From Strigomonas culicis (Eukaryota > Euglenozoa > Kinetoplastea > Trypanosomatida > Trypanosomatidae), in NCBI GenBank assembly GCA_000482145.1, contig AUXH01000183.1, positions 1 to 30,450 of the forward strand: 30,450 nucleotides of DNA. Direction: 5' to 3'. The number at the start of each line of letters is the position of its first letter. The stretch's first letter is position 1. Shown in pieces: positions 1,242 through 30,450 of the stretch. The notes beneath the pieces are model-generated. The model made no database searches, was not told the DNA's origin, and saw only the letters and a program-made list of their open reading frames with translations. Both the position numbers and the translations under genes were made by a program.

Positions 1242-3230
1242 ATGAGATTGTGGCATAAGCAGCTGCCACGGACGTCACTTTATGCTCTTGTCGCTTGTGT
1301 GGCATTGCTGTTAGGTGTCTGTTCCACGGATGCTTCTACAGTAATTCCCATCACGGACAACATCACATTGTCCAACCGCGCAATCAGTGATGTCGTGTAC
1401 AATGTGAGCACCATGACCACCTCTTCGTCCCAATCAGTCAATTCTTTCACGGACTGCAGCCTCATGGGCGGCGGCATTGGCTTCACTGCGTTCTTGAGCT
1501 CTGTCTCCGGCACTTCCATTCCCGTATTCAACCTCACCATGACCCAGACAGTTGTCACCAGCGCTACCATCCTCATCACTGGGTACTTTCCGCCCTACTC
1601 GAACTTGATGATCTCGCACACGACGGCCACGATGAAGGGCACCACCCCACTCTACAACTTTCAAAGTCTCGTGCCCGAAAATCATGTGATTGTCTACGTA
1701 TACGAGACAACCGCGACGTGGAATAACGACGGCACTGGTGGTGCTGTGCTCCTCATGGGTGGCTCTGTGAGACAACTGTTCCAGACGTACAGCGGTCTGT
1801 ACATGGTCAACACGCATGCCAGGTACGCCGCACACATACTGCATCAGGCGAAGCCGGAATGCTCCACCACAGCGCACTGCTTGGATATTTACAGTGGACT
1901 TTTTGCCATTGATGTCGCAACGTGCACGGACTGCACTGGTGAGTTTCTACGAAGTGAAAATACCGCTTCCTTCTTGACTGGGGCATACAATGGTGTGGTG
2001 CGCATCTCAAATTGCACATCTACAGGGAGGCATGCTTTCATAGGAACCTTAGGGACAATCTCGTTCCAGTTCTCTGGTACCGGCAACCTTGTTTTCTACG
2101 GCATAACAGTGGACAGCACATTTTTAGGTGCTGGCACTGCTAACATAGGACTGGCAGGTGTGGGTTACTTGTCTTTCATGCACGTCAACGCAGTCTCTGT
2201 TGGTGCTATATCTGCTGCCTTGCCAAGTATGACTAACAGCGATAATGTTGTCTGGATGGGCAACATCACGTTGAATGGCACGCTCCTGACTTCTGTCTCC
2301 GACCTTTCATCGAGCAATTTAACGGCCAACTACTTCTTGGATCCGTATGGTATGGTATCTGAGGTCACGGGAATCTCGGGAGTTGCGGACGCGGTTGGGT
2401 CTCCCGCCTCCGTATTCTGCGCGCGCCCCGGCTTCTCCAACGCCTCCTGGGAGACGTTCAACACGTGGAAGCGCGCCAAGTGCAACTGCAATAACGGTAC
2501 CTACGGCCCCTACTGCATGCAGATCCCAGACCCCATCTCCTACTATGTGAACTACAAGGGAGGGGACACAGCCATTCCGCTAAGCACTGGGTTTATCATA
2601 GGTATCATTGTGGTTCCTATTTGCTTTTTGCTTGTGGTGCTGAGTCTTTTGTTGTTATGTGTTTTATGCTGCCGAAAGAAACGAACCGTCCAGTATACTT
2701 GTGACAGTGATACATCCAGTGAAGTGTACGCTGGTGCCAAAGTGAACTCTCGGAATGGATCAACGTGTTGTCGGATCAACTCACAGCGCTCTTTTTCGTA
2801 TTACGGCAGGAATCCGTCGAATCTGAATCGCCGGATGAGCTCTCAGGATTTTAGTTGTTCCGGCACTGGAGAACCATTGACTATGAACCAGCGGAGGAAC
2901 TCACAAGGACCCAATGCATCTTTCACCAGGAGACCCATGGGTATGAATCAGCGGAGAATCTCACAAGGACCCAACGCATCTTTCACCGGGAGACCCATGG
3001 GTATGAATCAGCGGAGAATCTCACAAGGACCCACTTCATTTTCCAATAGAAGTTCACTTTCACAGCGTGGTGAAGATGTACAAATGCAAGAGATTGAACC
3101 GAGAGGCAATGTTGCGCTCGAGGCAAGCAGTGGAGGAGTCAACGGAAGGCGTCGTTCTTTCAGCGCAATCCGTTACGTGGATCTCAAAGAAGATGACGCG
3201 GTTGAAGCATATAATTCTTACTTCGAATAA
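1242..3230 (+). CDS. surface protein A: type I membrane glycoprotein, beta-rich ectodomain
   Basis: This 662-residue protein starts at the first ATG after the splice acceptor. Residues 1-31 form a signal peptide (hydrophobic core ALVACVALLLGVC). Residues 32-390 are Ser/Thr/Gly-rich with short hydrophobic strands and many NxS/T sites, which suggests a beta-helix-like fold. A Cys motif follows at about 393-430 and ends in YGPYC, then DPISYY. Residues 451-477 are a membrane helix followed by RKKR. The cytoplasmic tail (478-662) contains three 20-residue repeats and an acidic end. The protein is clearly paralogous to surface protein C (shared motifs TTATM.GTTPL and NLTMT) and less closely to B and D. 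It lacks the Cys-rich stalk modules of its paralogues. Adhesion or coat function is inferred from architecture only; I cannot name the family. Confidence 0.85.
   Translation: MRLWHKQLPRTSLYALVACVALLLGVCSTDASTVIPITDNITLSNRAISDVVYNVSTMTTSSSQSVNSFTDCSLMGGGIGFTAFLSSVSGTSIPVFNLTMTQTVVTSATILITGYFPPYSNLMISHTTATMKGTTPLYNFQSLVPENHVIVYVYETTATWNNDGTGGAVLLMGGSVRQLFQTYSGLYMVNTHARYAAHILHQAKPECSTTAHCLDIYSGLFAIDVATCTDCTGEFLRSENTASFLTGAYNGVVRISNCTSTGRHAFIGTLGTISFQFSGTGNLVFYGITVDSTFLGAGTANIGLAGVGYLSFMHVNAVSVGAISAALPSMTNSDNVVWMGNITLNGTLLTSVSDLSSSNLTANYFLDPYGMVSEVTGISGVADAVGSPASVFCARPGFSNASWETFNTWKRAKCNCNNGTYGPYCMQIPDPISYYVNYKGGDTAIPLSTGFIIGIIVVPICFLLVVLSLLLLCVLCCRKKRTVQYTCDSDTSSEVYAGAKVNSRNGSTCCRINSQRSFSYYGRNPSNLNRRMSSQDFSCSGTGEPLTMNQRRNSQGPNASFTRRPMGMNQRRISQGPNASFTGRPMGMNQRRISQGPTSFSNRSSLSQRGEDVQMQEIEPRGNVALEASSGGVNGRRRSFSAIRYVDLKEDDAVEAYNSYFE
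2883..3044 (+). repeat. 60-bp tandem repeats in the tail of surface protein A
   Basis: There are three units of 60 bp, starting at 2883, 2943 and 3003, the last incomplete. Each encodes about 20 residues beginning MNQRR.SQGP, with a basic RR and a serine that could be a phosphorylation site. Units 2 and 3 are almost identical over their shared length. The same 20-residue periodicity is seen in the tail of surface protein C with different sequence. Confidence 0.9.
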
Positions 3231-7580: not shown

Positions 7581-7632
7581 GCTTTTTTTAATTTCTTTTT
7601 CCTTTTCATCTTTGTTCATATGGCTCGCCCAG
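7581..7632 (+). promoter_or_regulatory. candidate trans-splice acceptor for LRR gene 1
   Basis: A T-rich tract (7581-7618) is followed by the first AG at 7631-7632. That AG lies downstream of the in-frame ATG at 7620, so if it is used the first ATG of the mRNA is 7686. The paralogue at 22628 begins at the position equivalent to 7686, which supports this choice. Confidence 0.5.
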
Positions 7633-7685
7633 GTAAACGTTGCAAGAAGAATAAGAATGTGGTGTATTCCGTCACGTCCACTGCA

Positions 7686-9473
7686 ATGGAATGCACGACG
7701 GATAACTTGGAGGAGGGAAACGTGTGGACGGCCGTGAGCAGCTGCGCGATGGAGCTGGTGACGGCGCATCTGCCGCGCGTGTCGTGTGCGGTGTGCGCGT
7801 CCGACCGCAACGTGCGGGCTCTGGCGGAACTCAACGGCCCTGCGCACACGCACCAAGTGGAGCTTTCGAACAGGAAGTTATTTCACAGAGGTGAAGATGG
7901 CACTGTCGCTGTAAAAGTGTGGGAACACGTGGTACGGTTTGAACACGATGAAGGTTGTGAAGGTCCTGCATTGTGCGTAATCGATGTTTGTAATGTGGAA
8001 GCTGTCGAGCTTGCAGTGTGGTGGCTTCAAGTGGTTGGCGTGCGCTCGCTGATGTTGATAAATCTAAACGAACTAGCCAACATTTCTTTGATACACACCA
8101 TGAGTGTATTGCTTACTGAAGGAAAACTAACACACGAAGGGAAAGCTCTTCCATTGGTGCTGGAGGAACTGACACTTCAAGGGAAAGCTCACACTGGCCA
8201 AACAATGCAAGAATTATACTTTATCGCGCGGTGTCAACACCTGCAACAACTGAAAATAAAGTATATTACGTTGAACTCTCTGGATGGTTTTCAGAATCTC
8301 ATAAACCTGAAGGAAGTGTATCTCTCAGGTACGGATGCAGAGACGCTCTTCCCTTTGAGACACTGTGTATTGCTAGAGAAGGTCTATCTGGGCAGGGGTG
8401 AAGTGTATTCATTAGAGGGTCTTGAGCGGCTGACCGCGCTCCGCGAGTTGAGCATTTTTTATTCGTCCATAACCACCTTGAAGCACCTGTGTGAATGCCG
8501 ACAACTGGAAAAGTTGGATATCTATCATTGCAACTCTCTCACATCATTAGAAGGACTCCAAGATATGACTGAGCTTACTGCTCTTGACCTTTCTTATGCA
8601 AAGGTGAGTGATATCAGTTTTCTACGAAAATGTACGATAATGAAAGAAATGAGCCTATGTGAGTGCAATAATCTCCTTTCCTTGGATGGTTTGCAGGACA
8701 TGACGGCGCTCACAGAGCTTGACCTGCACGATTCGACTGTGCGTGACATCAGCTTACTGAGAACATGCACGCGAATGACCAAGTTAAATCTAAGTCACTG
8801 TAGTCAGGTGCAATCGCTGGAAGGGTTGCAGGACATGACGGCGCTCACACAGCTTGAACTTTCCAGTGTGAAGGTGAGTGACCTTACCTTCCTTAGGAAG
8901 TGCACGCGAATGACCAATTTAAGACTAAGGTGGTGCGGCGAATTGCAATCACTAGACGGGTTGCAGGACATGACGGCGCTCACAGAGCTTGATCTGTTCG
9001 ATTCGACTGTGCGTGATCTCAGCTTCCTGAGGAAATGCACGCAAATGGCCAATTTAAGACTAAGGTGGTGCGGCGAATTGCAATCACTAGACGGGTTGCA
9101 GGACATGACGGCGGTGACAGAACTGGACCTTTGCAAGACAGACGTAAATGACCTCACCTTCCTGAAGCAATGGACACAACTGAGACGTTTAAATGTAGGG
9201 GGGTGCTGTGACTTACAATCTCTTGATGGGCTGCAGGGCATGAAAGCGCTCGCAAGTCTTGATATTACATTTACAAAAGTGAGTGATCTGAGTATTCTGA
9301 TGAATTGTACGAACTTGCAGTGTATTACCTTACTTTACTGCACTGAGCTACACTCATTGAAGGGACTAGAGGGCTTACAAAGGCTTAAGAGTATTTCCAT
9401 ATCGTCCCGCATGGATGGAAATGTTGATAAAATATCAATACCATCAAGTAAAGTAGTAATACGTTATCTGTGA
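7686..9473 (+). CDS. leucine-rich-repeat protein 1
   Basis: The protein has 595 residues from the ATG at 7686 (617 if the ATG at 7620 is used). The first 150 residues form a conserved N-terminal region shared with LRR gene 2. It includes a CAVCASDRNVRALAELN motif and WEHVV.FE, followed by WWLQVVGVRSL. From about residue 170 to the end there are LRRs of about 22-23 residues. The central ones are organised as exact 45-residue pairs (LTELDL...VRDLSFLRKCT, then L.L..C..LQSLDGLQDM). No signal peptide or membrane helix is visible, so an intracellular location is likely. LRR arrays usually bind proteins; the partner is unknown. It lies downstream of a decayed LRR gene and carries the flanking module seen near LRR gene 2 and surface gene D. 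Confidence 0.85.
   Translation: MECTTDNLEEGNVWTAVSSCAMELVTAHLPRVSCAVCASDRNVRALAELNGPAHTHQVELSNRKLFHRGEDGTVAVKVWEHVVRFEHDEGCEGPALCVIDVCNVEAVELAVWWLQVVGVRSLMLINLNELANISLIHTMSVLLTEGKLTHEGKALPLVLEELTLQGKAHTGQTMQELYFIARCQHLQQLKIKYITLNSLDGFQNLINLKEVYLSGTDAETLFPLRHCVLLEKVYLGRGEVYSLEGLERLTALRELSIFYSSITTLKHLCECRQLEKLDIYHCNSLTSLEGLQDMTELTALDLSYAKVSDISFLRKCTIMKEMSLCECNNLLSLDGLQDMTALTELDLHDSTVRDISLLRTCTRMTKLNLSHCSQVQSLEGLQDMTALTQLELSSVKVSDLTFLRKCTRMTNLRLRWCGELQSLDGLQDMTALTELDLFDSTVRDLSFLRKCTQMANLRLRWCGELQSLDGLQDMTAVTELDLCKTDVNDLTFLKQWTQLRRLNVGGCCDLQSLDGLQGMKALASLDITFTKVSDLSILMNCTNLQCITLLYCTELHSLKGLEGLQRLKSISISSRMDGNVDKISIPSSKVVIRYL
8561..9370 (+). repeat. six 135-bp LRR units in LRR gene 1
   Basis: The gacatgacggcgctcac-type block recurs at 8561, 8696, 8831, 8966, 9101 and 9236, exactly 135 bp apart. 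Each 135-bp unit codes for two LRRs. The units starting at about 8905 and 9040 share a stretch of tens of identical bases, which indicates recent duplication or gene conversion. Confidence 0.9.
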
Positions 9474-10378: not shown

Positions 10379-12448
10379 ATGAAGACTTTCCGTTTGACGA
10401 GGCTGGCGCTTGTGTTGACAGCTTGTGCCCTGCTTGCTGCCGTACCCTACACAAGAGCATCTACCATCATCACTGTAGGCAGTGGAAGCCATGGTTACAA
10501 TGGATCGTCATTTGATGACTACAACTTCAGCTTCAATAACTTGCCGTCCTCTTCGTCAGAGCTGGTCACCGTGAGTCTGACCGATACCGCTGTGCGTGGT
10601 GGTGGTCTTTTCTTCACGCGAGAAGTGTCGACCGCTACTTCAACATTGACCAACGTGACACTCTTGCGTACAACGGTAACAGACACAGCGATAGCGATCA
10701 AAGGCACGTTCTACAACCTGACCATGCTCCTCTCTGGCACCACGGCAAACATGCAGGGTTCGACGGACCTGTTTGTTCTGAATGACTACGTGCCTTCGTA
10801 CAATTGCATCATCTATTTTTATAATACGACTGCCACGTGGGACGCTAGCGGTCCGGGTGGGTCTGTCTTTGTAAGGCGAGGATCTATAAGGACTTGGTTG
10901 AACATACCGAGTGCTCTGTACATGACCAGGACGAACGCGACCCGTGCGGCACATATTTGGTACACGACGTACGATGATGATGGTAACTCTATATACAACA
11001 TTGATGGTTCAGGCACCATCGCCATCGATTTTACGATATGCACCAGCTGTACGAAATCATTCATAGGAACCAATGAGGGAAGCTACTCTTTTGCGGGCTC
11101 CGTTTACAACCACTTTCGCATCTCAAATGCTACCATCACGGGTGGCGTTCCATTTTGGAGTGTTTCTACCGGATCCGGAATGTTTGCTTTCGGTCCCCGT
11201 TCAACTGTCATTCTCTCCGGCATCACGACGGACGGCTCGCTCTTCCCCAACGATAGTTTTGGCATCATCCAGAGATCTGCCAACATGGTGATGGCCCACA
11301 TCAACGCCAAAGCTTTGGGGTTGAGCACTTCCCCCGTGACGTTTCCCTTCTACACCTTGTCCTTCTCTGATACCCACACTTTCATGGGGAACATAACGAT
11401 CGACGGTGTCAGGCTGCCCGAGGATATCGCAACGTACAACGCCCACAACCTTAACGCGACTGTGCTCATCAACGAGTTCAGCTTTGCTACCGTCAATACT
11501 GGACTAGAGTCGGGAAACTACGCGATTGGGGCCCCGACCTCTGCGTACTGCAGCTTCGGCTTCTTCAGCGGTGTCTCTACGGAGACGCTCGACCGTCCCG
11601 GGGCTCAGTGGACTCGCGCCGAGTGCACCTGCAAGAGCGGGTACCACAAGCCGTACTGCACCCTGCTCCCGGACCCCCTGCCGTACTACGCCGGCTACAT
11701 CGAGTGCAGCGTAAGCCACTGCGCCACGTGCCAGTGGACGAGCGGCGATGTGTGCTCCGTGTGTGAGCCGGGCTACGTGGTGGACGGGACCGGGTGCGCG
11801 CCCATGTCCTGCCACGTGGACCACTGCACGACGTGCGTCTTCAACACAGAAGATAAGTGCGAGGTGTGTGAGGGCAACTACACGCATAACGAGGACGGCG
11901 CGACGTGCACGGCGGTGTGTCGGGCCGCTAACTGCAGTCGCTGCGTGGCGGGCACAGACGATCAGTGTGACACCTGCGCAGACGGTTTCACGCAAGAGAA
12001 TGCCATGTGTCTCCAGAGTAGGTCCGAGTCCCCTGGTTTGTCAATGACGGCGACACTTGGGCTGATGCTGGGACTAATTGCGCTTGTTGTCGTATTGGCC
12101 TTGACTGTGTTCCTCGTGTTGTGGAGCCGTCGGAGGAAGGTGGCAAGAATACAAGCACACGAGGCGGAGGAGCCAAAAGAACCGGATACTGACCAATGCA
12201 GCGTACACGTATCGACGGAGCGGAAGGATGACATGGCATATTCAGATGCTGTGATGTACTTCAATGCTGATGTTAACCACAATCCACTTTCTGGTGAAGC
12301 CCCATCTGAGAGCGACAGAAACGCGAGAGCTCCGGGCCCGGGAAGGCGGACTGCACGGCGTGGAAGAAGCACCCATCGTGTAGATTCAGTGTTTGAGGAC
12401 GTGGACTTGGATACTATGTATAATGGTGACAATGAAATCGTGGAGTAA
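10379..12448 (+). CDS. surface protein B: type I membrane glycoprotein, three Cys-rich modules
   Basis: This 689-residue protein has a signal peptide at residues 1-27 (core LALVLTACALLAAV). A Ser/Thr-rich, N-glycosylated beta-strand ectodomain extends to about residue 400. The shared Cys motif ends in YHKPYC, then DPLPYYAGY. Three Cys-rich modules of about 35 residues follow (443 to about 548), each of the form C..C..C......C..C..GY......C. A membrane helix at 558-582 is followed by SRRRK and an acidic, partly Arg-rich tail. B is a paralogue of A, C and D; its stalk and the DP-YYAGY junction are closest to D. The modules resemble furin-like or VSP-like cysteine repeats in spacing, though I do not assign them to a named family. 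A surface adhesin or receptor role is inferred. Confidence 0.85.
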   Translation: MKTFRLTRLALVLTACALLAAVPYTRASTIITVGSGSHGYNGSSFDDYNFSFNNLPSSSSELVTVSLTDTAVRGGGLFFTREVSTATSTLTNVTLLRTTVTDTAIAIKGTFYNLTMLLSGTTANMQGSTDLFVLNDYVPSYNCIIYFYNTTATWDASGPGGSVFVRRGSIRTWLNIPSALYMTRTNATRAAHIWYTTYDDDGNSIYNIDGSGTIAIDFTICTSCTKSFIGTNEGSYSFAGSVYNHFRISNATITGGVPFWSVSTGSGMFAFGPRSTVILSGITTDGSLFPNDSFGIIQRSANMVMAHINAKALGLSTSPVTFPFYTLSFSDTHTFMGNITIDGVRLPEDIATYNAHNLNATVLINEFSFATVNTGLESGNYAIGAPTSAYCSFGFFSGVSTETLDRPGAQWTRAECTCKSGYHKPYCTLLPDPLPYYAGYIECSVSHCATCQWTSGDVCSVCEPGYVVDGTGCAPMSCHVDHCTTCVFNTEDKCEVCEGNYTHNEDGATCTAVCRAANCSRCVAGTDDQCDTCADGFTQENAMCLQSRSESPGLSMTATLGLMLGLIALVVVLALTVFLVLWSRRRKVARIQAHEAEEPKEPDTDQCSVHVSTERKDDMAYSDAVMYFNADVNHNPLSGEAPSESDRNARAPGPGRRTARRGRSTHRVDSVFEDVDLDTMYNGDNEIVE

Positions 12449-16884: not shown

Positions 16885-19800
16885 ATGTGTGCAATGTCCC
16901 GGAGAACAGCCTCGCTGGTTACGGCGATCACTGTTCTGCTGTTCTGCCTTTCTGTACTGAGCACCTATGTGGCCGCAACAACGTCGATTGCGATTCAAGG
17001 CAGTGTTTCCCTGTCTGGTCAAACTATCGACGGTTCTGTGTACAATTTGCGCTCGATGACCACCTCATCGCAGCGCTCACTGAACTACATCACGGACTGC
17101 ACGATTAAAGGCGAGGGCCTTGGCATCAGTGGTTTTTGGAGCGCTGTTTCCGACTACAGGATCCCCTTGTTCAACCTGACGATGACCAGGTCGACGGTGA
17201 CAAGTGCCACTATTTCTATCATCGGACACTATCCGCACTACTCAACCTTGGGTATATACTATACCACGGCCACAATGTCGGGAACGACTCCGTTGTTCGA
17301 TTTTACTGACCTTAACCTGGCGCACTACGTCGTCGTGTATATACTGGATACTACAGCCACGTGGAGTGCGGGCGGTTCCGGTGGTGACGTGCTTGTCGTC
17401 GGAGGTCTCACACGACAGCTTTTTACCGACTACAGTGGCTTCTACATGGTCAACGTCCGTGCGACGAACGCGGCGCACATGATGCATCAGCCCACACCTA
17501 CGTGTGAGGGCCAACGCGACTCCTGTTTAGACCTTGACAATGGCCTCATTGCCATCGACAATGCGCTGTGCATTAATTGCAAAGGTCCGTTTCTGCAAAG
17601 TGATATGTCTCGCACCTTTATCAACGGCTTCAGTACGGACGTACTGCGCATCTCCAACTGCACATCGACGGGAGGACAGCCCTTTATTCACGCAGTGGGA
17701 GGCTACGCGGTTAATTTTGGTTACTCGGGGAACTTGCTCTTTTATGGCATCACTGCGGATGGCTCCCTTTTCAGTCCGAGCTCCAAGTTGGTCAGTATTG
17801 GACAAACCACGTTGATGAGCTTTATGCACATTAACCTGCCTTCACTGGGGGTAAGCGAGGACATACCTGTAGGGATACGATCCTGCTGCACCGCCTGGAT
17901 GGGCAACCTCACGATTAACAGTGTACCACTGACGACGCTTACGATGCTTGCAAACTACAAATTGTTGGCTCACTATCTTCTGGACCCCTTCGGCAAAATC
18001 ATTGAAAAAGCCGGTTTAGGCACCGTGGTCGAGAGCCTTGGGGATCCTGCATCCGTATTCTGCGTGCGGCCTCATTTCACCTACAGTTACTGGGAATCGC
18101 TGAATGGATGGCAGCGTGCACGCTGCTTTTGCCTGAGTAGTGGCTACGGACCCTACTGCATGCCCATACCCGATCCAGTGGGGTACTATGCTTACTACGC
18201 CCCCCCTTCTAGCACATGCACAGCATCCCATTGCAGCCTGTGTCCGTCAGGTGAGCCGCAGACGTGCTTGGCGTGTGCCGATGGCTACGTGCTGAACCCT
18301 ACGACCTCGCAGTGTGTCACCAAGCCTGTGTGCAGCGGGAATCAACAGACATCCACCGATGGCCTCTCTTGTGTAACTATGACTTGCAAAGTGACGAACT
18401 GCAATGTGTGCGTGGCTGAACAAGACACGGTGTGCCAGACGTGCGCCAGTGGCTATAAGCTCAGCAGCGATGCGAAGTCGTGCAGCGCGATGGTGTGCTC
18501 GGTGGGCAACTGTGCAACGTGTGTCACGAACACGGAGGACCAATGCGCCACGTGCGCGACAAACTATAAGCTGAGCAGCGACAAGAAAACGTGCAGCGCG
18601 ATGGTGTGCTCGGTGGGCAACTGCGCAACGTGTGTTACGAACACGGAGGACCAATGTGCCACGTGCGCGACGAACTATAAGCTGAGCAGCGACAAGAAAA
18701 CGTGCAGCCCGATGGTGTGCTCGGTGAGCAACTGTACAACGTGTGTCACGAACACGGAGGACCAATGTGCGACATGCGCCACTAACTTTAAGCTGAGCAG
18801 CGACAAGAAATCGTGTACCGAGATGGGTTGCAATGTGGACAACTGTGCGAAGTGTGTCACGAACACGGAGGACCAATGCGCCACGTGCGCCAGTAACTAT
18901 AAGCTGAGCAGCGACACGAAATCGTGCACCGAGATGGTGTGCAATGTGAACAACTGTGCAACATGTGTCTGGAACACGGAGGACCAGTGCGAGACGTGTA
19001 CGACGAACTATAAGCTCAGCAGCGACGCGAAGTCGTGCAGCCCGATGGTGTGCTCGGTGAGCAACTGTGCAGCGTGTGTCACGAACACGGAGGACCAATG
19101 CGCCACGTGCGCCACTAACTATAAGCTGAGCAGCGACAAGAAAATGTGCAGCGCGATGGTGTGCTCGGTGGGCAACTGTGCAACGTGTGTCACGAACACG
19201 GAAGACCAATGCCAGACGTGTACCACTGGTTATAAGCTGAGCAGCGACAGGTACGGGTGCAGCCAGACAGTGTGCAGGGTGCTCTACTGTGCAACGTGTG
19301 TCACAAACATGGAGTACGAATGCGAGACGTGCGCCAGCAACTATAAGCTGAGCAGCGACAACACATCGTGCAGCCAGATGGTGTGCAATGTGAACGACTG
19401 TGTAACGTGTGTCACGAACACGGAGGACCAATGCCTGACGTGCGCCACTAACTATACACCGAGCAACGACAAGCAGTCGTGCATCAATGCAACAACGGAG
19501 ACACCGAAAGACGGCGACACGAAAGCAAAGAATGCGACGAACAGCATGCTTTCCACCGCTGCCATTGTGGGTCTCATCTGCGGTGTACTTGGCCTGCTCA
19601 TTCTTGTGCTGATCGGTGTGTGTTGCTGCTATCGGAGGAAGAAGGAACAGGATGAGAGTGTGTCTTACGACGAAACGCCTTCTGGGTCTTTTATTTTGAG
19701 GAGCCATAAAGACTCTGATAGCTTCATCCCGTATTACAATGACAATTCACGAAGTGGGCCTTCGCAGAGTAGCTCAGCGGACTCCACGTCGTATTGCAAC

Positions 19801-20133
19801 CAAAATCCACTTACTGTGCTTTCACGGAATAACTCACAGAGGTCCATGTCGTATTACAACCAAAATCCACTAACTGTGCTTTCGCGGAATAACTCGCAGC
19901 CGTGCATGTCCGATTGCTACGAAGATCCATCACCCGCGCTTTCCCATCATAATTCACAGCCTTGCATGGCCTATTACAACGAAGATGCACTACCTATGTT
20001 TCCGCAGAATAACTGTCAAGACCCCATTTTGGTTGATGACGAAGATCTATATGAGCCATGCGAAGACGCACAAATGCAGCCGATGTACCCGAGAGGCAGT
20101 TTCATGCGGCAGACCAGCAGTGGAGGGTGGTAG
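16885..20133 (+). CDS. surface protein C: large type I glycoprotein with ten Cys-rich repeats
   Basis: This 1082-residue protein has a signal peptide at residues 1-32 (core VTAITVLLFCLSVLS). Its ectodomain, to about residue 400, is closely related to that of surface protein A (shared MTTSS, IP.FNLTMT and TTATM.GTTPLF). A Cys motif ends in YGPYC, then DPVGYY. An irregular Cys module lies at about 446-498 and ten regular 37-residue modules at 499-868 (VC.V.NC.TCVTNTEDQC.TC...YKLSSD...C). A membrane helix at 893-916 precedes RRKK and a tail with four 20-residue repeats. The tail ends EDAQMQPMYPRG....SSGG, matching EDVQMQEIEPRG....SSGG in A. It stops at TAG 20131-20133 while homology to A continues in frame beyond the stop. 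The stalk probably projects the ectodomain from the cell; the ligand is unknown. Confidence 0.88.
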   Translation: MCAMSRRTASLVTAITVLLFCLSVLSTYVAATTSIAIQGSVSLSGQTIDGSVYNLRSMTTSSQRSLNYITDCTIKGEGLGISGFWSAVSDYRIPLFNLTMTRSTVTSATISIIGHYPHYSTLGIYYTTATMSGTTPLFDFTDLNLAHYVVVYILDTTATWSAGGSGGDVLVVGGLTRQLFTDYSGFYMVNVRATNAAHMMHQPTPTCEGQRDSCLDLDNGLIAIDNALCINCKGPFLQSDMSRTFINGFSTDVLRISNCTSTGGQPFIHAVGGYAVNFGYSGNLLFYGITADGSLFSPSSKLVSIGQTTLMSFMHINLPSLGVSEDIPVGIRSCCTAWMGNLTINSVPLTTLTMLANYKLLAHYLLDPFGKIIEKAGLGTVVESLGDPASVFCVRPHFTYSYWESLNGWQRARCFCLSSGYGPYCMPIPDPVGYYAYYAPPSSTCTASHCSLCPSGEPQTCLACADGYVLNPTTSQCVTKPVCSGNQQTSTDGLSCVTMTCKVTNCNVCVAEQDTVCQTCASGYKLSSDAKSCSAMVCSVGNCATCVTNTEDQCATCATNYKLSSDKKTCSAMVCSVGNCATCVTNTEDQCATCATNYKLSSDKKTCSPMVCSVSNCTTCVTNTEDQCATCATNFKLSSDKKSCTEMGCNVDNCAKCVTNTEDQCATCASNYKLSSDTKSCTEMVCNVNNCATCVWNTEDQCETCTTNYKLSSDAKSCSPMVCSVSNCAACVTNTEDQCATCATNYKLSSDKKMCSAMVCSVGNCATCVTNTEDQCQTCTTGYKLSSDRYGCSQTVCRVLYCATCVTNMEYECETCASNYKLSSDNTSCSQMVCNVNDCVTCVTNTEDQCLTCATNYTPSNDKQSCINATTETPKDGDTKAKNATNSMLSTAAIVGLICGVLGLLILVLIGVCCCYRRKKEQDESVSYDETPSGSFILRSHKDSDSFIPYYNDNSRSGPSQSSSADSTSYCNQNPLTVLSRNNSQRSMSYYNQNPLTVLSRNNSQPCMSDCYEDPSPALSHHNSQPCMAYYNEDALPMFPQNNCQDPILVDDEDLYEPCEDAQMQPMYPRGSFMRQTSSGGW
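18379..19488 (+). repeat. ten tandem 111-bp Cys-rich units
   Basis: Units begin at 18379, 18490, 18601, 18712, 18823, 18934, 19045, 19156, 19267 and 19378, every one exactly 111 bp (37 codons) long with no indels. The second and third units (18490 and 18601) are nearly identical, while the first and the last two are more diverged. That pattern fits expansion from the middle of the array. Confidence 0.95.
19789..20028 (+). repeat. four 60-bp repeats in the tail of surface protein C
   Basis: Units start at 19789, 19849, 19909 and 19969. Each encodes a 20-residue unit of the type SYYNQNPLTVLSRNNSQ..M, Ser- and Tyr-rich. The first two are nearly identical and the last two diverge. Confidence 0.88.
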
Positions 20134-22627: not shown

Positions 22628-23613
22628 ATGCAACGCACGACTGATGAAGTGGTGGAAGGCAACATGTGGACGCCAGTGAACAGCTACGCACTGGGGCTGG
22701 TGACGGCGTATCTGCCTCGCGTCTCGTGTGCAGTGTGCGCGTCGGACCGCAACGTGAGGGCTCTGGCGGAGCTCAACAGGCCTGTGCACACGCACACTAT
22801 TATTGTTTCGAACCGCAAAGGTTTTTACATTGGAGAAAACTGGAATTTCCCCTGGGAAGTGGAAGAGGACCATGTCAATGAGGAATATGAGGATTCATTT
22901 TCCGTTTCCAACTTCGGAGAGGAAGAGAATACTGTTGAGAATGAAGACAGTGATGTTACTACAGAGATCTGGGAGCACGTGGTAAAGTTTGAGTACAATG
23001 AAAGCCATATGGACCATGCATTGTGTGTGATGGATGTGAGTGATGTGCATGCCGTTCATTTGGTGACGTGGTGGCTTCAAGTGGTTGGTGTCCGCTCACT
23101 GAAGCTCATAAATGTAGATAAGTTGACTTCTTTAGGCTTGGAAAACGTCCTTTTCACCTTGCTGACAATGTCACACCTAACAAGGGAAGGGAGACCTCTG
23201 CCGTTGGTGCTGCAGGAGCTACTTTTTGAAGGGAGGGAATCTTTTCCCACATATATGAAGCACTTAAACTCTATCCAGGAGTGTCACGGTTTACAAAAAC
23301 TACACCTAAAATGTTGTGTGTTGGGGTCACTCCAAGGGCTCGAGACACTCACACACCTGAACGATTTTCATCTCGAAGGAACACTATCCAATACACTCAC
23401 GCCGTTCAAGAACTGTGTGTGGCTGGAGACACTGTTTATTGGTGAGTGTTTGAATTTGACCTCAATAATAGGTCTTGAAAGATTGACGGCGTTGCGAGAG
23501 TTGACCATCTGCCACTCCGGTATAACGGACTTGGTGCCTCTCCGTGTATGCCTGCATCTGAAAAAGCTAGACCTGCGGAATTGCTCGAGTCTACAATCTT
23601 TAAGGAGTGTGGA

Positions 23614-24427
23614 AGGTTTAACCGAACTCACAGAGCTGTATCTTTCAGACACGGAAGTGAGTGACCTCCGCTTGCTGCAACAATGTGTGCACATGGTAAA
23701 GTTGGAACTAAGCGGCTGCAGAAAGGTGCATTCCTTAGACGGGTTGCAGGACATGACGACATTGAGAGAGCTGGACCTTTCCCGTACGCAGGTGCATGAC
23801 CTCCGCTTCCTAAGGAGATGCGTGCAAATGACGAAGCTGGATCTATGCGGATGCAAGGAATTGGGATCCTTGAACGTCTTGCAAGACATGATACAACTCA
23901 CAGAGTTGGACCTTACCCATATACAGGTGCGTGATCTCCACTTCCTGAGGAAGTGCACACAAATCACGCAGCTGGATTTAACGGGTTGCAAGGATTTGGA
24001 ATCCTTAAACGGACTGCAAGACATGACGCAACTCACAGGGCTGAACCTTTCGTGGACGAGGGTGCATGACCTCCGTTTCCTGAGAAAGTGCACGCAAATC
24101 ACGCAGCTGGATCTAAGGGGTTGCAAGGAGTTGGAATCCTTAGACGGTTTGCAAGACATGACAGTACTCACAAAGCTGGACCTTTCCCATACGCGGGTGC
24201 TTGATCTCAGCCAGCTTCCTGAGGAGATGCGTGCAAATAACGAAGCTGGAGCTTTGCGGCTGCAAGGCTTTGGAATCCTTAAGCGGATTGCAAGACATGA
24301 CGCAACTCAGAGAGCTGAACCTTTCGTGGACGAAGGTGCGTGACCTGAACACTCTGAGTGGATGCACAGAACTCCATCGGATTGATTTGCGGCTCTGCAC
24401 TGAGTTGCACTCGTTAAAGGGTTTAGA
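23614..24427 (+). repeat. 135-bp LRR units in LRR gene 2
   Basis: The ga.atgac-type block occurs at 23614, 23749, 23884, 24019 and 24154, each 135 bp apart, and then at 24293, a spacing of 139. The one aberrant interval locates the 4-bp insertion without reference to any other gene. Confidence 0.9.
24208..24215 (+). other. frameshift site: cagc tandem duplication
   Basis: The sequence gatctcagccagcttcctga has cagc twice. The equivalent place in LRR gene 1 reads gatctcagcttcctga with one copy. The extra 4 bp shift the frame by +1 and cause the early stop at 24341. Confidence 0.8.
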
Positions 24428-28133: not shown

Positions 28134-28856
28134 CTACCATGAAAGGAGGATCCATTGTCAGCGCTGTTTTGCTGACATGGCTCGTGGTGCTCGTGAACAT
28201 TGTCGTACCCATTGCGGCTGACACGACTGTGGTCATAACCGGTTCAATGACAGTTGAAAAGGGCGACTCCAAGTACAATGGTATGACATACGATTTCACT
28301 GGCATGACACAGGCCACGGCAGTCGCGGTAGTGAACATTGCTGACGCAGAAGTCAGTGGAAATGGTCTGCGTTTCCTGGGGTTTCCCAGTGCTCCCAGTG
28401 CTACGGTATATGCGTTGAACCTGTCTCTTGCAAACGCGATGGTGATGGACAGCACCATCACGCTGCAAGGCTATCTGCCGCGCTACTCGAACTTCTACTT
28501 TTCCAACACGAAGGCCACTATGAGCGGCACGACACCCCTCTTTCTCCTGACCAACGTTGTCCCGCAGTATTACGTCATCATCAACATTGTGGACGTGACA
28601 GCGAATTGGCCGACATCCGGTAGTGGCGGCGATGTGCTCCAGATTGGCAAGACTGTTCGACTGTTGGCGCAATACCACAGCGCCTTCTACATCACTCGCG
28701 TCAACGCCTACAATGCCGCTCACATCTGGAACGTGGCTGTATCTCTTTCGTCGACCATGCACTTTGTGGTTGTGCGGGACTATTCGATGCTTGCGGTGGA
28801 CTACGTCAATTGCTACAACTGCAAGGGTGCCTTCATTTACTCGTCGAACTCACAGG

Positions 28857-28864
28857 CCCCCCCC
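28857..28864 (+). other. C8 homopolymer frameshift site
   Basis: Eight C in a row lie in a coding stretch. Upstream codons are in the frame of 28139. Downstream family homology is in the frame that would be continuous with seven C. The gene is therefore out of frame by one base here. Confidence 0.75.
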
Positions 28865-29493
28865 AGTGGTGGGATCCGTCTACAGCATGGTGCGCTACTC
28901 CAATTGCACACAGACGGGCGGCAAAGCCTTTTTTGCGGCCACGAGCAGCGATGCATTCAATTTTGGCCCAGGGTACGGCTCCGTTGTCTTTTCAGGTATC
29001 ACCACAGATGGCGTCTTTTTCCAGTTCACTGGTACAGGCAGAGGTCACGTGAGGCGCTTTACTATGTTCACCTTCATGCACATCAATGCCGCTTCTTTCG
29101 GCATTTCAACCTCCTCCCACTTGCCCGTGTACTTGTTTAAAGGTTATAGTGCAATGCCCGAGTCACACAGTTTTTTTGGCAACATCACCTTTGGCGGCAC
29201 TCTTCTCTCTTCGACTACGCAGTACAGTAATGCGAGGATCCAGGCCAAGTATCTCGTAACTCCCTACCGCAAGTTTGTGACGTATGGTACCGGTTACTCC
29301 ATCCGTGGCATGGTCAATCAGTACAGCTACTCCGTGGGAGCCAACACGGCTGCGTACTGCGCCTTTGGTGGTGGCACGTCGAGTATCGGCACCGAAACCC
29401 TCGGCGATACCACCAACGGTGGCACACTCTGGACGCGGCCCAAGTGCGTGTGCGCCACCGGCTACTGGGCGCCGTACTGCACACCGGTGTACG

Positions 29494-29505
29494 ACCCACT
29501 GCTGT
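29494..29505 (+). repeat. left target-site duplication of the retroposon
   Basis: The 12-bp sequence acccactgctgt immediately precedes the retroposon and is repeated exactly at 29754-29765. It is part of the coding sequence for DPLL in surface gene D. Confidence 0.92.
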
Positions 29506-29580
29506 CCCTGGAGAAGGAAGGCCACCTCTACGTGGTTCCAGGGATCAGTACCCCATTTGGGGGGAAGCTAAAAGCCCTCC
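29506..29580 (+). ncRNA. candidate HDV-like self-cleaving ribozyme at the retroposon 5' end
   Basis: The expected nested pseudoknot can be drawn by hand. P1 is ccctgga (29506-29512) with tccaggg (29537-29543), seven perfect pairs starting at the first base of the element. P2 is ggaaggc (29516-29522) with gccctcc (29574-29580), one A-C mismatch. P3 is cac (29523-29525) with gtg (29532-29534), loop of six. P4 is cccc (29551-29554) with gggg (29559-29562). The J4/2 strand holds gctaa with C29568 in the place of the catalytic cytosine. Predicted cleavage is between 29505 and 29506. The L1Tc element has a published ribozyme of this class at the same place. Activity here is untested. Confidence 0.72.
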
Positions 29581-29666
29581 GATTTACCCACAAGGGTGAA
29601 CCGGGGGGATTTGGCCTTGACTGGGCTTCCAGGTCATACAGCGAGGCACCCAAGCGTGCTGGCCGA

Positions 29667-29688
29667 GGTCTAGTCTTCGGACTAGGCT
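29667..29688 (+). other. hairpin with cUUCGg tetraloop inside the retroposon
   Basis: Bases 29670-29675 (ctagtc) pair perfectly with 29680-29685 (gactag) around a ttcg loop. Wobble and GC pairs extend the stem to about nine. The cUUCGg loop is unusually stable in RNA. It sits in the 3' half of the element and might serve recognition by the reverse transcriptase supplied in trans; that role is speculation. Confidence 0.6.
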
Positions 29689-29753
29689 CTGAACATCGCT
29701 CGCGCCTCATTACCCGAAAACGGTAGACGTGTAGTGGGTTGGGAAAAAAAAAA

Positions 29754-29765
29754 ACCCACTGCTGT
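29754..29765 (+). repeat. right target-site duplication of the retroposon
   Basis: This is an exact copy of the 12 bp at 29494-29505, directly after the A-run. Its first A cannot be told apart from the tail. Confidence 0.92.
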
Positions 29766-30024
29766 ACTACGCCGGCTACACGTACGGCCTCGTGGACTGT
29801 GCGGTGGATAACTGCACGCAGTGCTGGTGGGGGCACCCCGAGAAGTGCACGGAATGTGACCCCGGCTTCATGCTGTACACATCCACGTGGAGCTGTGTGC
29901 CCAACATTTGCGGTTACTGCGACAAGGACGACGGCAAGATCTACACCTACACGGAGGGCGTGTGCGTGGAGAACGCGGTGGCGAACTGCGCGGCTGTCAA
30001 CACCAAAGGCACCTGCGTGACGTG

Positions 30025-30236
30025 CAATGAGGGCTACTCTCTGTACAACAAGGCGTGCGTCAAGTGCAATGTCGAGAACTGCGCGCTCTGCTCCAAGGAG
30101 AACTTCTGCTACCAGTGCAATACGGATCAGCAATGAGGGCTACTCCCTGTACAACAAGGCGTGCGTCAAGTGCAATGTCGAGAACTGCGCGCTCTGCTCC
30201 AAGGAGAACTTCTGCTACCAGTGCAATACGGACCAG
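30025..30236 (+). repeat. 106-bp frameshifting tandem duplication in surface gene D
   Basis: Bases 30025-30130 and 30131-30236 match at all but two positions (ctctctg/ctccctg and ggatcag/ggaccag). Because 106 is not a multiple of three, the first copy ends at a TGA (30134-30136) and the Cys modules continue only in the frame of the second copy. The duplicated part encodes one Cys module (NEGYSLYNKACVKC...). Confidence 0.92.
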
Positions 30237-30450
30237 GCCTTCGTCGCGGACAGCAACGGCCAGTGCGCCTACTGCACGGACCACTGCGCAACTTGCACCA
30301 GCACCGACTGCACCGCCTGCGGGGATGGCTACAAACTGACGGACGGCACATGCACGGCCTTGTGCAGCATTGCGGGTTGCAGCACATGTGTCAGTGCCAC
30401 TGCGTGCGCTACGTGCGACTCCGACTTGACGCTCTTGTCGGACAGCACGT

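Follow-up and report, generated by a model that had tools for sequence, protein, structure and literature searches.

What does a ribozyme-like sequence do at the start of an insert in a surface-antigen-like gene of Strigomonas culicis, a unicellular parasite of insects? The window, that is, the whole 30,450-nt stretch of DNA analysed here, carries in its gene D a 248-bp retroposon, SINE1, which ends in poly(A) and is bounded by a 12-bp target duplication (Table 1). The original prediction held that the first 75 nt of this insert fold as an HDV-like ribozyme and took gene disruption at the RNA level as its meaning. Judged from its sequence, SINE1 appears to be a non-autonomous retroposon of the ingi/L1Tc type whose host is a Strigomonas-like trypanosomatid, and by the same comparison it is a derivative of the element LINE-A produced by internal deletion. 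A more fitting view, we suggest, is that the ribozyme serves to process the element's own 5′ end. The whole explanation comprises a 5′ end of ingi/L1Tc type, a covarying HDV-like fold, a fixed target in antigen genes, a proposed R2-like release of the element RNA and, less surely, a LINE-A that is translated starting from the host's start codon, and we give it a probability of about 0.7.

Table 1. Positions of the features in the window, and contigs that carry copies of the element family
Feature	Position or contig	Strand	Remark
Gene D, surface-antigen-like	28139..30450	+	Carries the insert; runs off the contig; has frame breaks besides the insert
SINE1 insert	29506..29753	+	29506-29718 resembles the LINE-A 5′ end, 29721 onward the LINE-A 3′ end, then poly(A)
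Target-site duplication, 5′ copy	29494..29505	+	ACCCACTGCTGT; within the D-P-x-x-Y codons of the host gene
Target-site duplication, 3′ copy	29754..29765	+	ACCCACTGCTGT; direct repeat of the 5′ copy
HDV-like ribozyme fold, Pr77 type (predicted)	29506..29580	+	From Rfam register, descriptor and pair counts
CGTG, Pr77 downstream promoter element	29531..29534	+	+26 to +29 of SINE1
TAG closing the frame that runs from the host part through SINE1	29724..29726	+	In-frame stop brought by the insert
Paralogue, uninterrupted, 1082 aa	16885..20133	+	Empty target site PDPVGYYAYY
Paralogue	1242..3230	+	Empty site PDPISYYVNY
Paralogue	10379..12448	+	Empty site PDPLPYYAGY
SINE1	C183		Sense, target point
LINE-A 5′ ends	C444, C241, C651		Sense, target point
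LINE-A 3′ end	C560		Sense, target point; downstream side alone visible
SINE2, full length	C651		Sense, target point
SINE2, 5′-truncated	C611, C281		Sense, target point
SINE2, 5′-truncated	C9		Intergenic, with a different 12-bp repeat

The HDV nested-pseudoknot layout claimed for the first 75 nt is borne out by the pair counts, a fold descriptor and the Rfam register, as P1 (7 bp), P2, P3 and P4 follow in the order of a nested double pseudoknot with P1 at base 1. The perfect 7-bp P1 of the original prediction is there (CCCUGGA/UCCAGGG, 29506-29512 with 29537-29543, 7/7 pairs), beginning directly 3′ of the target duplication. P2 forms as well (29516-29522 with 29574-29580), with 6/7 pairs; its one A.C mismatch had not been mentioned. 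P3 (ACC/GGU, 29524-29526 with 29534-29536) has 3/3 pairs and closes a 7-nt L3 (29527-29533), and P4 (CCCC/GGGG, 29551-29554 with 29560-29563) has 4/4. The J4/2 strand, likewise part of the earlier claim, is present as GAAGCUAAAA at 29564-29573, and the C at 29568 is, by analogy with HDV-like ribozymes, presumably the catalytic one. CNRA is the J4/2 motif of HDV-like ribozymes, and the J4/2 C lies within such a motif, CUAA in three types and CCAA in SINE2. A clear two-pair P1.1, which is not part of the descriptor, was not seen by eye.

Could such a fold be a chance match? With a descriptor composed after the sequence had been seen, none of 20,000 dinucleotide-preserving shuffles gave a match at base 1. 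Applied to 581,218 bases (both strands, overlapping loci), the descriptor matched five different sequences, which represent four ribozyme types and each stand at a retroposon-like 5′ end. Four of these were elements already recognised; the fifth is a retroposon-like sequence in C135, with a place that LINE-B had pointed out separately about 460 nt downstream of it, and this match is not fully blind because the locus had been chosen for a P3/L3-like stretch. The pattern from P3 to J4/2 occurs at 7 places in the 17.7-Mb assembly, all of them in such retroposon elements, and at 0 in the reversed control, while the P3/L3 piece alone, with up to 2 mismatches, does not discriminate (31 places vs. 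19 for the control).

Among 4227 Rfam families searched with a 121-base stretch, the best was RF02682 (HDV-F-prausnitzii, a model named for another organism's ribozyme), whose positions 1-74 fall on 29506-29579 with an E of 0.17. Its score of 17.8 bits is below the curated cut-off (gathering score 44), and the match begins at the element's first base, in exact register. The search of the whole window at E ≤ 5 returned four sub-threshold matches and no HDV ribozyme. SINE2 matches RF02682, third in its list, at positions 19-32 only (14 positions, 11.9 bits, E 3.9), and its top match is a tRNA-like-structure pseudoknot family (E 1.2). The plain fold energy of the ribozyme stretch is ordinary (z -0.5), which is uninformative here because the program cannot form a pseudoknot. 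The low Rfam score and the ordinary energy would fit a coincidence; the shuffles, albeit with a post hoc descriptor, the exact register with the element end and the covariation of the stems leave the chance of one close to nil.

The covariation was followed across four ribozyme types, i.e., SINE1/LINE-A, SINE2, LINE-B and SINE-C, with pair counts that omit three copies of LINE-A and one, the second, of LINE-B. The counts come from a hand partition, because MAFFT set P1 of SINE2 and LINE-B out of register. In P1, 4 of the 7 pairs (3, 4, 5, and 7) are changed on both sides between the four types, and each of the 28 cells holds a standard pair (G-U in two). For P2, both sides have changed in three of the six compared pairs (2, 4, and 5), and standard pairs fill 22 of 24 cells; the two that deviate are pair 3 of SINE1 and pair 3 of LINE-B. 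When strands are mixed between types, P1 gives 4-7 pairs against 7/7 for own strands, and 7 is reached only by SINE1 x SINE2, whose 5′ strands are identical. The own strands of P2 give 5, 6, 5, and 6 of 6 in the four types and mixed ones 4-5; the window type is not singled out by this mixing, because its 5′ strand makes 5/6 pairs with its own 3′ strand and 5, 5, and 5 with those of the other types. Loss of P1/P2 pairing in other copies had been named as something that would count against the original prediction, and the opposite was seen. On these comparisons of sequence, both stems persist across four ribozyme types of one genome, by way of changes that compensate each other.

Ribozyme-bearing retroposons are already known in trypanosomatids. 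The 5′ end of SINE1 bears the Pr77 signature (CCCT at +1, CCACC, and CGTG), and in this it is like L1TcRz/Pr77 of L1Tc, NARTc and SIDER2A, which also occupies the first 72-77 nt (PMC4035085, PMC4748587). The likeness extends to a cut expected before C1 and to the pairing of a LINE with an internally deleted SINE (PMC4035085); the differences are that the element here sits at one fixed point of a coding gene family and that the ribozyme here is a sequence-based prediction. The cut position that had been proposed, 29505/29506, agrees by analogy with the mapping of the cut to C1 in five related trypanosomatid ribozymes, as described in PMC4035085. By its sequence, the SINE1 ribozyme is a predicted new member of the Pr77/L1Tc ribozymes, and it is only a new member of the group because HDV-like Pr77 ribozymes of ingi/L1Tc retroposons were known before (PMC4035085); Strigomonas is absent from the genomes listed in section 5 of that paper.

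It is worth considering that the 75 nt may act mainly as a Pr77 internal promoter, with the fold as a relic and the element RNA starting at +1 without cleavage of a host transcript. The position of CGTG speaks for this, +26 to +29 here vs. +25 to +28 in L1Tc (PMC4748587), as do TcoSIDER1beta and TbSIDER1beta, which fold adequately yet did not cleave in vitro according to the part of PMC4035085 that deals with them. However, covariation of P1 and P2 between types is not required of a DNA promoter, and a LINE-A transcript from +1 would have no in-frame ATG before the endonuclease motif. Both roles can also coexist, as reported for L1Tc, and such a dual role is possible for SINE1 because the CGTG promoter element is present together with the ribozyme fold. 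We consider the promoter-only account unlikely, and the element RNA probably cuts itself free by means of the predicted ribozyme.

The position of the insert proved to be a recurrent target, which goes beyond what could be seen from the window. Nine copies of the family were found in the window's own assembly, and this is a lower bound, because the assembly seems to lack small contigs and the three LINE-A 5′ ends and the LINE-A 3′ end lie at contig ends. LINE-A, SINE1, and SINE2 have a common 3′ end and occur with target duplications, and 8 of the 9 copies lie in sense at a single point of surface-antigen-like genes, directly after GACCCNNNNNNNT. All five full-length 5′ ends start immediately 3′ of GACCCNNNNNNN(T/C), 13 nt from the G of a GAC codon, and the host sequence before the truncated copies in C611 (GACCCCATTCTCT) and C281 (GACCTCATCTTGT) agrees with the same insertion point. 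On the 3′ side, poly(A) leads directly into D-P codons in 5 of the 6 copies that have a 3′ end; four of these junctions agree with the same base, that of C611 is one base short, and the sixth copy is the intergenic one in C9. The target duplication of C611 is only about 10 bp, as compared to 12 bp.

A shared site could also stem from one old insertion that was copied by gene-family duplication or gene conversion, and the hosts are indeed a multigene family of the kind that recombines (a search of the assembly with the paralogue at 16885-20133 gave 63 matches, in which some genes appear as two pieces). In the six pairs formed by SINE1 and three LINE-A copies, however, the elements are 96-100% identical over 220 nt, whereas the upstream flanks are 44-59% identical over 286-300 aligned nt. 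Since near-identical elements adjoin unlike flanks, the insertions are independent and site-specific. Moreover, every junction bears its own gene's letters, LINE-A, SINE1, and SINE2 all occur at the point, and the loci examined yielded 25 different sequences of the site, of which 19 are empty paralogous sites and 6 are occupied (C281, C560 and the gene at 16885 with its empty site escaped the search pattern). A single ancestral insertion was rejected, as element identity is far above flank identity, and we hold it to be highly improbable. The four pairs with SINE2 say nothing on independence, because elements (52-57%) and flanks (53-59%) both differ.

Regarding the 5′-truncated SINE2 copies in C611 (L039), C281 (L041), and C9 (L040), all start within about 10 nt of one point, which in the full SINE2 (L006, ~1340) marks where a polypyrimidine tract followed by AG ends. 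An origin from trans-spliced RNA was set aside, as bases upstream of the putative acceptor AG are retained.

SINE1 and gene D both lie on the plus strand, and the sense orientation described in the original prediction is supported. Disruption at the RNA level is not supported as the main meaning, because gene D consists of two overlapping ORFs in different frames, contains a 106-nt tandem duplication (30024-30235, 98%, not a multiple of three), and receives an in-frame stop with the insert itself. In the host family, the paralogue at 16885-20133 shares 80% identity, over 56% of its length, with a "surface antigen" of Strigomonas culicis, which is the sole named protein of two matches in the search and which also has an empty site (DPVRYY). 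Pfam recognises a Giardia VSP-like stretch in this window paralogue (E 3.4e-8); among nine window ORFs at E ≤ 0.01, no RHS family was matched and both gene D ORFs were without any match. A protein search with the ORF that leads from gene D into SINE1 found no match among 2433 candidates. Leucine-rich-repeat genes (7620-9473 and 22628-24343) are interleaved with the surface-antigen paralogues.

The reading frame of the LINE partner, LINE-A, continues that of the host. In C651, 690 open codons begin in the host frame, pass the ribozyme, then a 2A motif and an AP endonuclease, and reach the contig end. The 2A motif of LINE-A is DIE(L/R)NPGP (DIELNPGP in the C651 copy), and its AP endonuclease domain is PF03372 (E 1.8e-11). 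LINE-A is open in the host phase from base 1 over all 94 codons to the end of 2A, and the 278 nt to that point lack ATG in every frame in 3/3 of its 5′ ends; the C651 copy has no in-frame Met before element codon 111, which lies beyond the APE motif at codon 100. When the first 240 nt were shuffled 5,000 times with dinucleotides preserved, the host phase (one of three phases) was open in 181 cases, ATG was absent from all frames in 835, and both applied to 32; with single-base shuffles, both applied to 10. The host frame meets a stop in the SINE2 ribozyme. In LINE-B, a stop within the ribozyme closes the 2A frame, and 2A is preceded by an ATG of the element's own.

We tentatively propose, as a possibility open to doubt, that LINE-A without a start codon inserts in frame and borrows the host's start and translation, so that its 2A-endonuclease polyprotein would be read from the host start codon in uncleaved transcripts and the endonuclease would be released from the host part by 2A. 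Uncut transcripts would then be the coding mRNA, and those cut by the ribozyme would provide the template for retrotransposition. There is an even chance that LINE-A protein is instead made by non-AUG or internal initiation, or that active copies with an ATG exist elsewhere, the openness of the host frame being a by-product. No complete host-LINE-A frame was seen, and the hosts are each imperfect upstream: that of C444 has one TAG upstream of the insert, that of C241 has several frame breaks, and that of C651 is open but has its first in-frame Met at residue 27 of the 690-codon frame. An intact host N-terminus was found in 0/3 LINE-A copies, and in C444 and C241 the element's endonuclease part is itself broken. 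Errors at contig ends may affect these host frames, and only three 5′ ends are available. Against initiation of this kind, the three copies hardly differ over their 5′ 220 nt, the 278 nt are ATG-free in each, and LINE-B of the same genome retains an ATG.

A search over the genome found no RVT_1 domain. The LINE body is not in the assembly, and it presumably fell into small contigs that the assembly lacks (C651 of 670 contigs is still 10.4 kb); membership in the ingi/L1Tc clade thus rests on the element ends. The LINE part of the C651 frame had no protein match at E ≤ 0.001 among 1361 candidates, all proteins of 0.55-1.75 times 690 aa.

Taken with the predicted ribozyme, the fixed target points to the following way of life. 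Polycistronic transcripts of antigen genes would run into the element, and the ribozyme would cut at the host/element junction to give an element RNA with an exact 5′ end. This RNA could be the template for target-primed reverse transcription, with first-strand synthesis primed at a bottom-strand nick that adjoins the proline codon. Such a cycle would be R2-like, but in a protein-coding gene family, and a fixed target inside transcribed genes would explain a precise cut at the junction. If true, the ribozyme and the fixed antigen-gene target would make the family an R2-like parasite of protein-coding genes, whose insertions offer a recurrent route to truncate or diversify surface antigens. A start-less, host-in-frame LINE with 2A predicts a joint host-LINE mRNA and a 2A-released protein.

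Among known site-specific elements, SLACS and CZAR target the spliced-leader RNA genes and have an endonuclease of another type than that found here. They resemble LINE-A in being site-specific trypanosomatid LINEs, and ingi elements are described as having relative site specificity and 12-bp target duplications (PMC3820030). R2 is site-specific in a transcribed multicopy gene (28S rDNA) and, as reported in PMC3774820, frees its RNA from 28S cotranscripts by an HDV-like ribozyme that cleaves at the 5′ junction; in contrast to R2, the family described here has an AP endonuclease, a 12-bp target duplication and a protein-coding target family. The RHS genes of Trypanosoma with their ingi/RIME inserts are similar in that a multigene family has a recurrent site for a LINE and its SINE and contains truncated genes (PMC7563717). 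However, RHS is another gene family, and its inserts are reported to give nonsense mutations or frameshifts (PMC7563717), whereas the LINE frame here is continuous with the host. In the portions of the literature covered by our search, we found no earlier description of this insertion site, of a LINE that lacks a start codon, or of a ribozyme in Strigomonas, and the main text of PMC12278014 contains neither "strigomonas" nor "surface". Relative to those portions, the combination of a ribozyme, a surface-antigen target and a start-less, host-in-frame LINE appears to be new.

The genome contains further retroposon families with ribozyme folds. In six places (C550, C57, C135, C90, C203, and C169), no antigen-gene flank was seen by eye beside LINE-B or SINE-C. 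LINE-B is a second LINE family with its own HDV-like fold (P1 CCGUAGC/GCUACGG; C550, L081 1494-2231; C57, L084); one of its copies lies in a gene with LRR-like sequence, and one is short, with a direct repeat, in AT-rich DNA. SINE-C is a SIDER2-like SINE family (C135, L026 1489 onward; L085, L086, and L087), and its copy in C135 combines a ribozyme fold with a perfect P2 and an apparent second, degenerate Pr77-like stretch.
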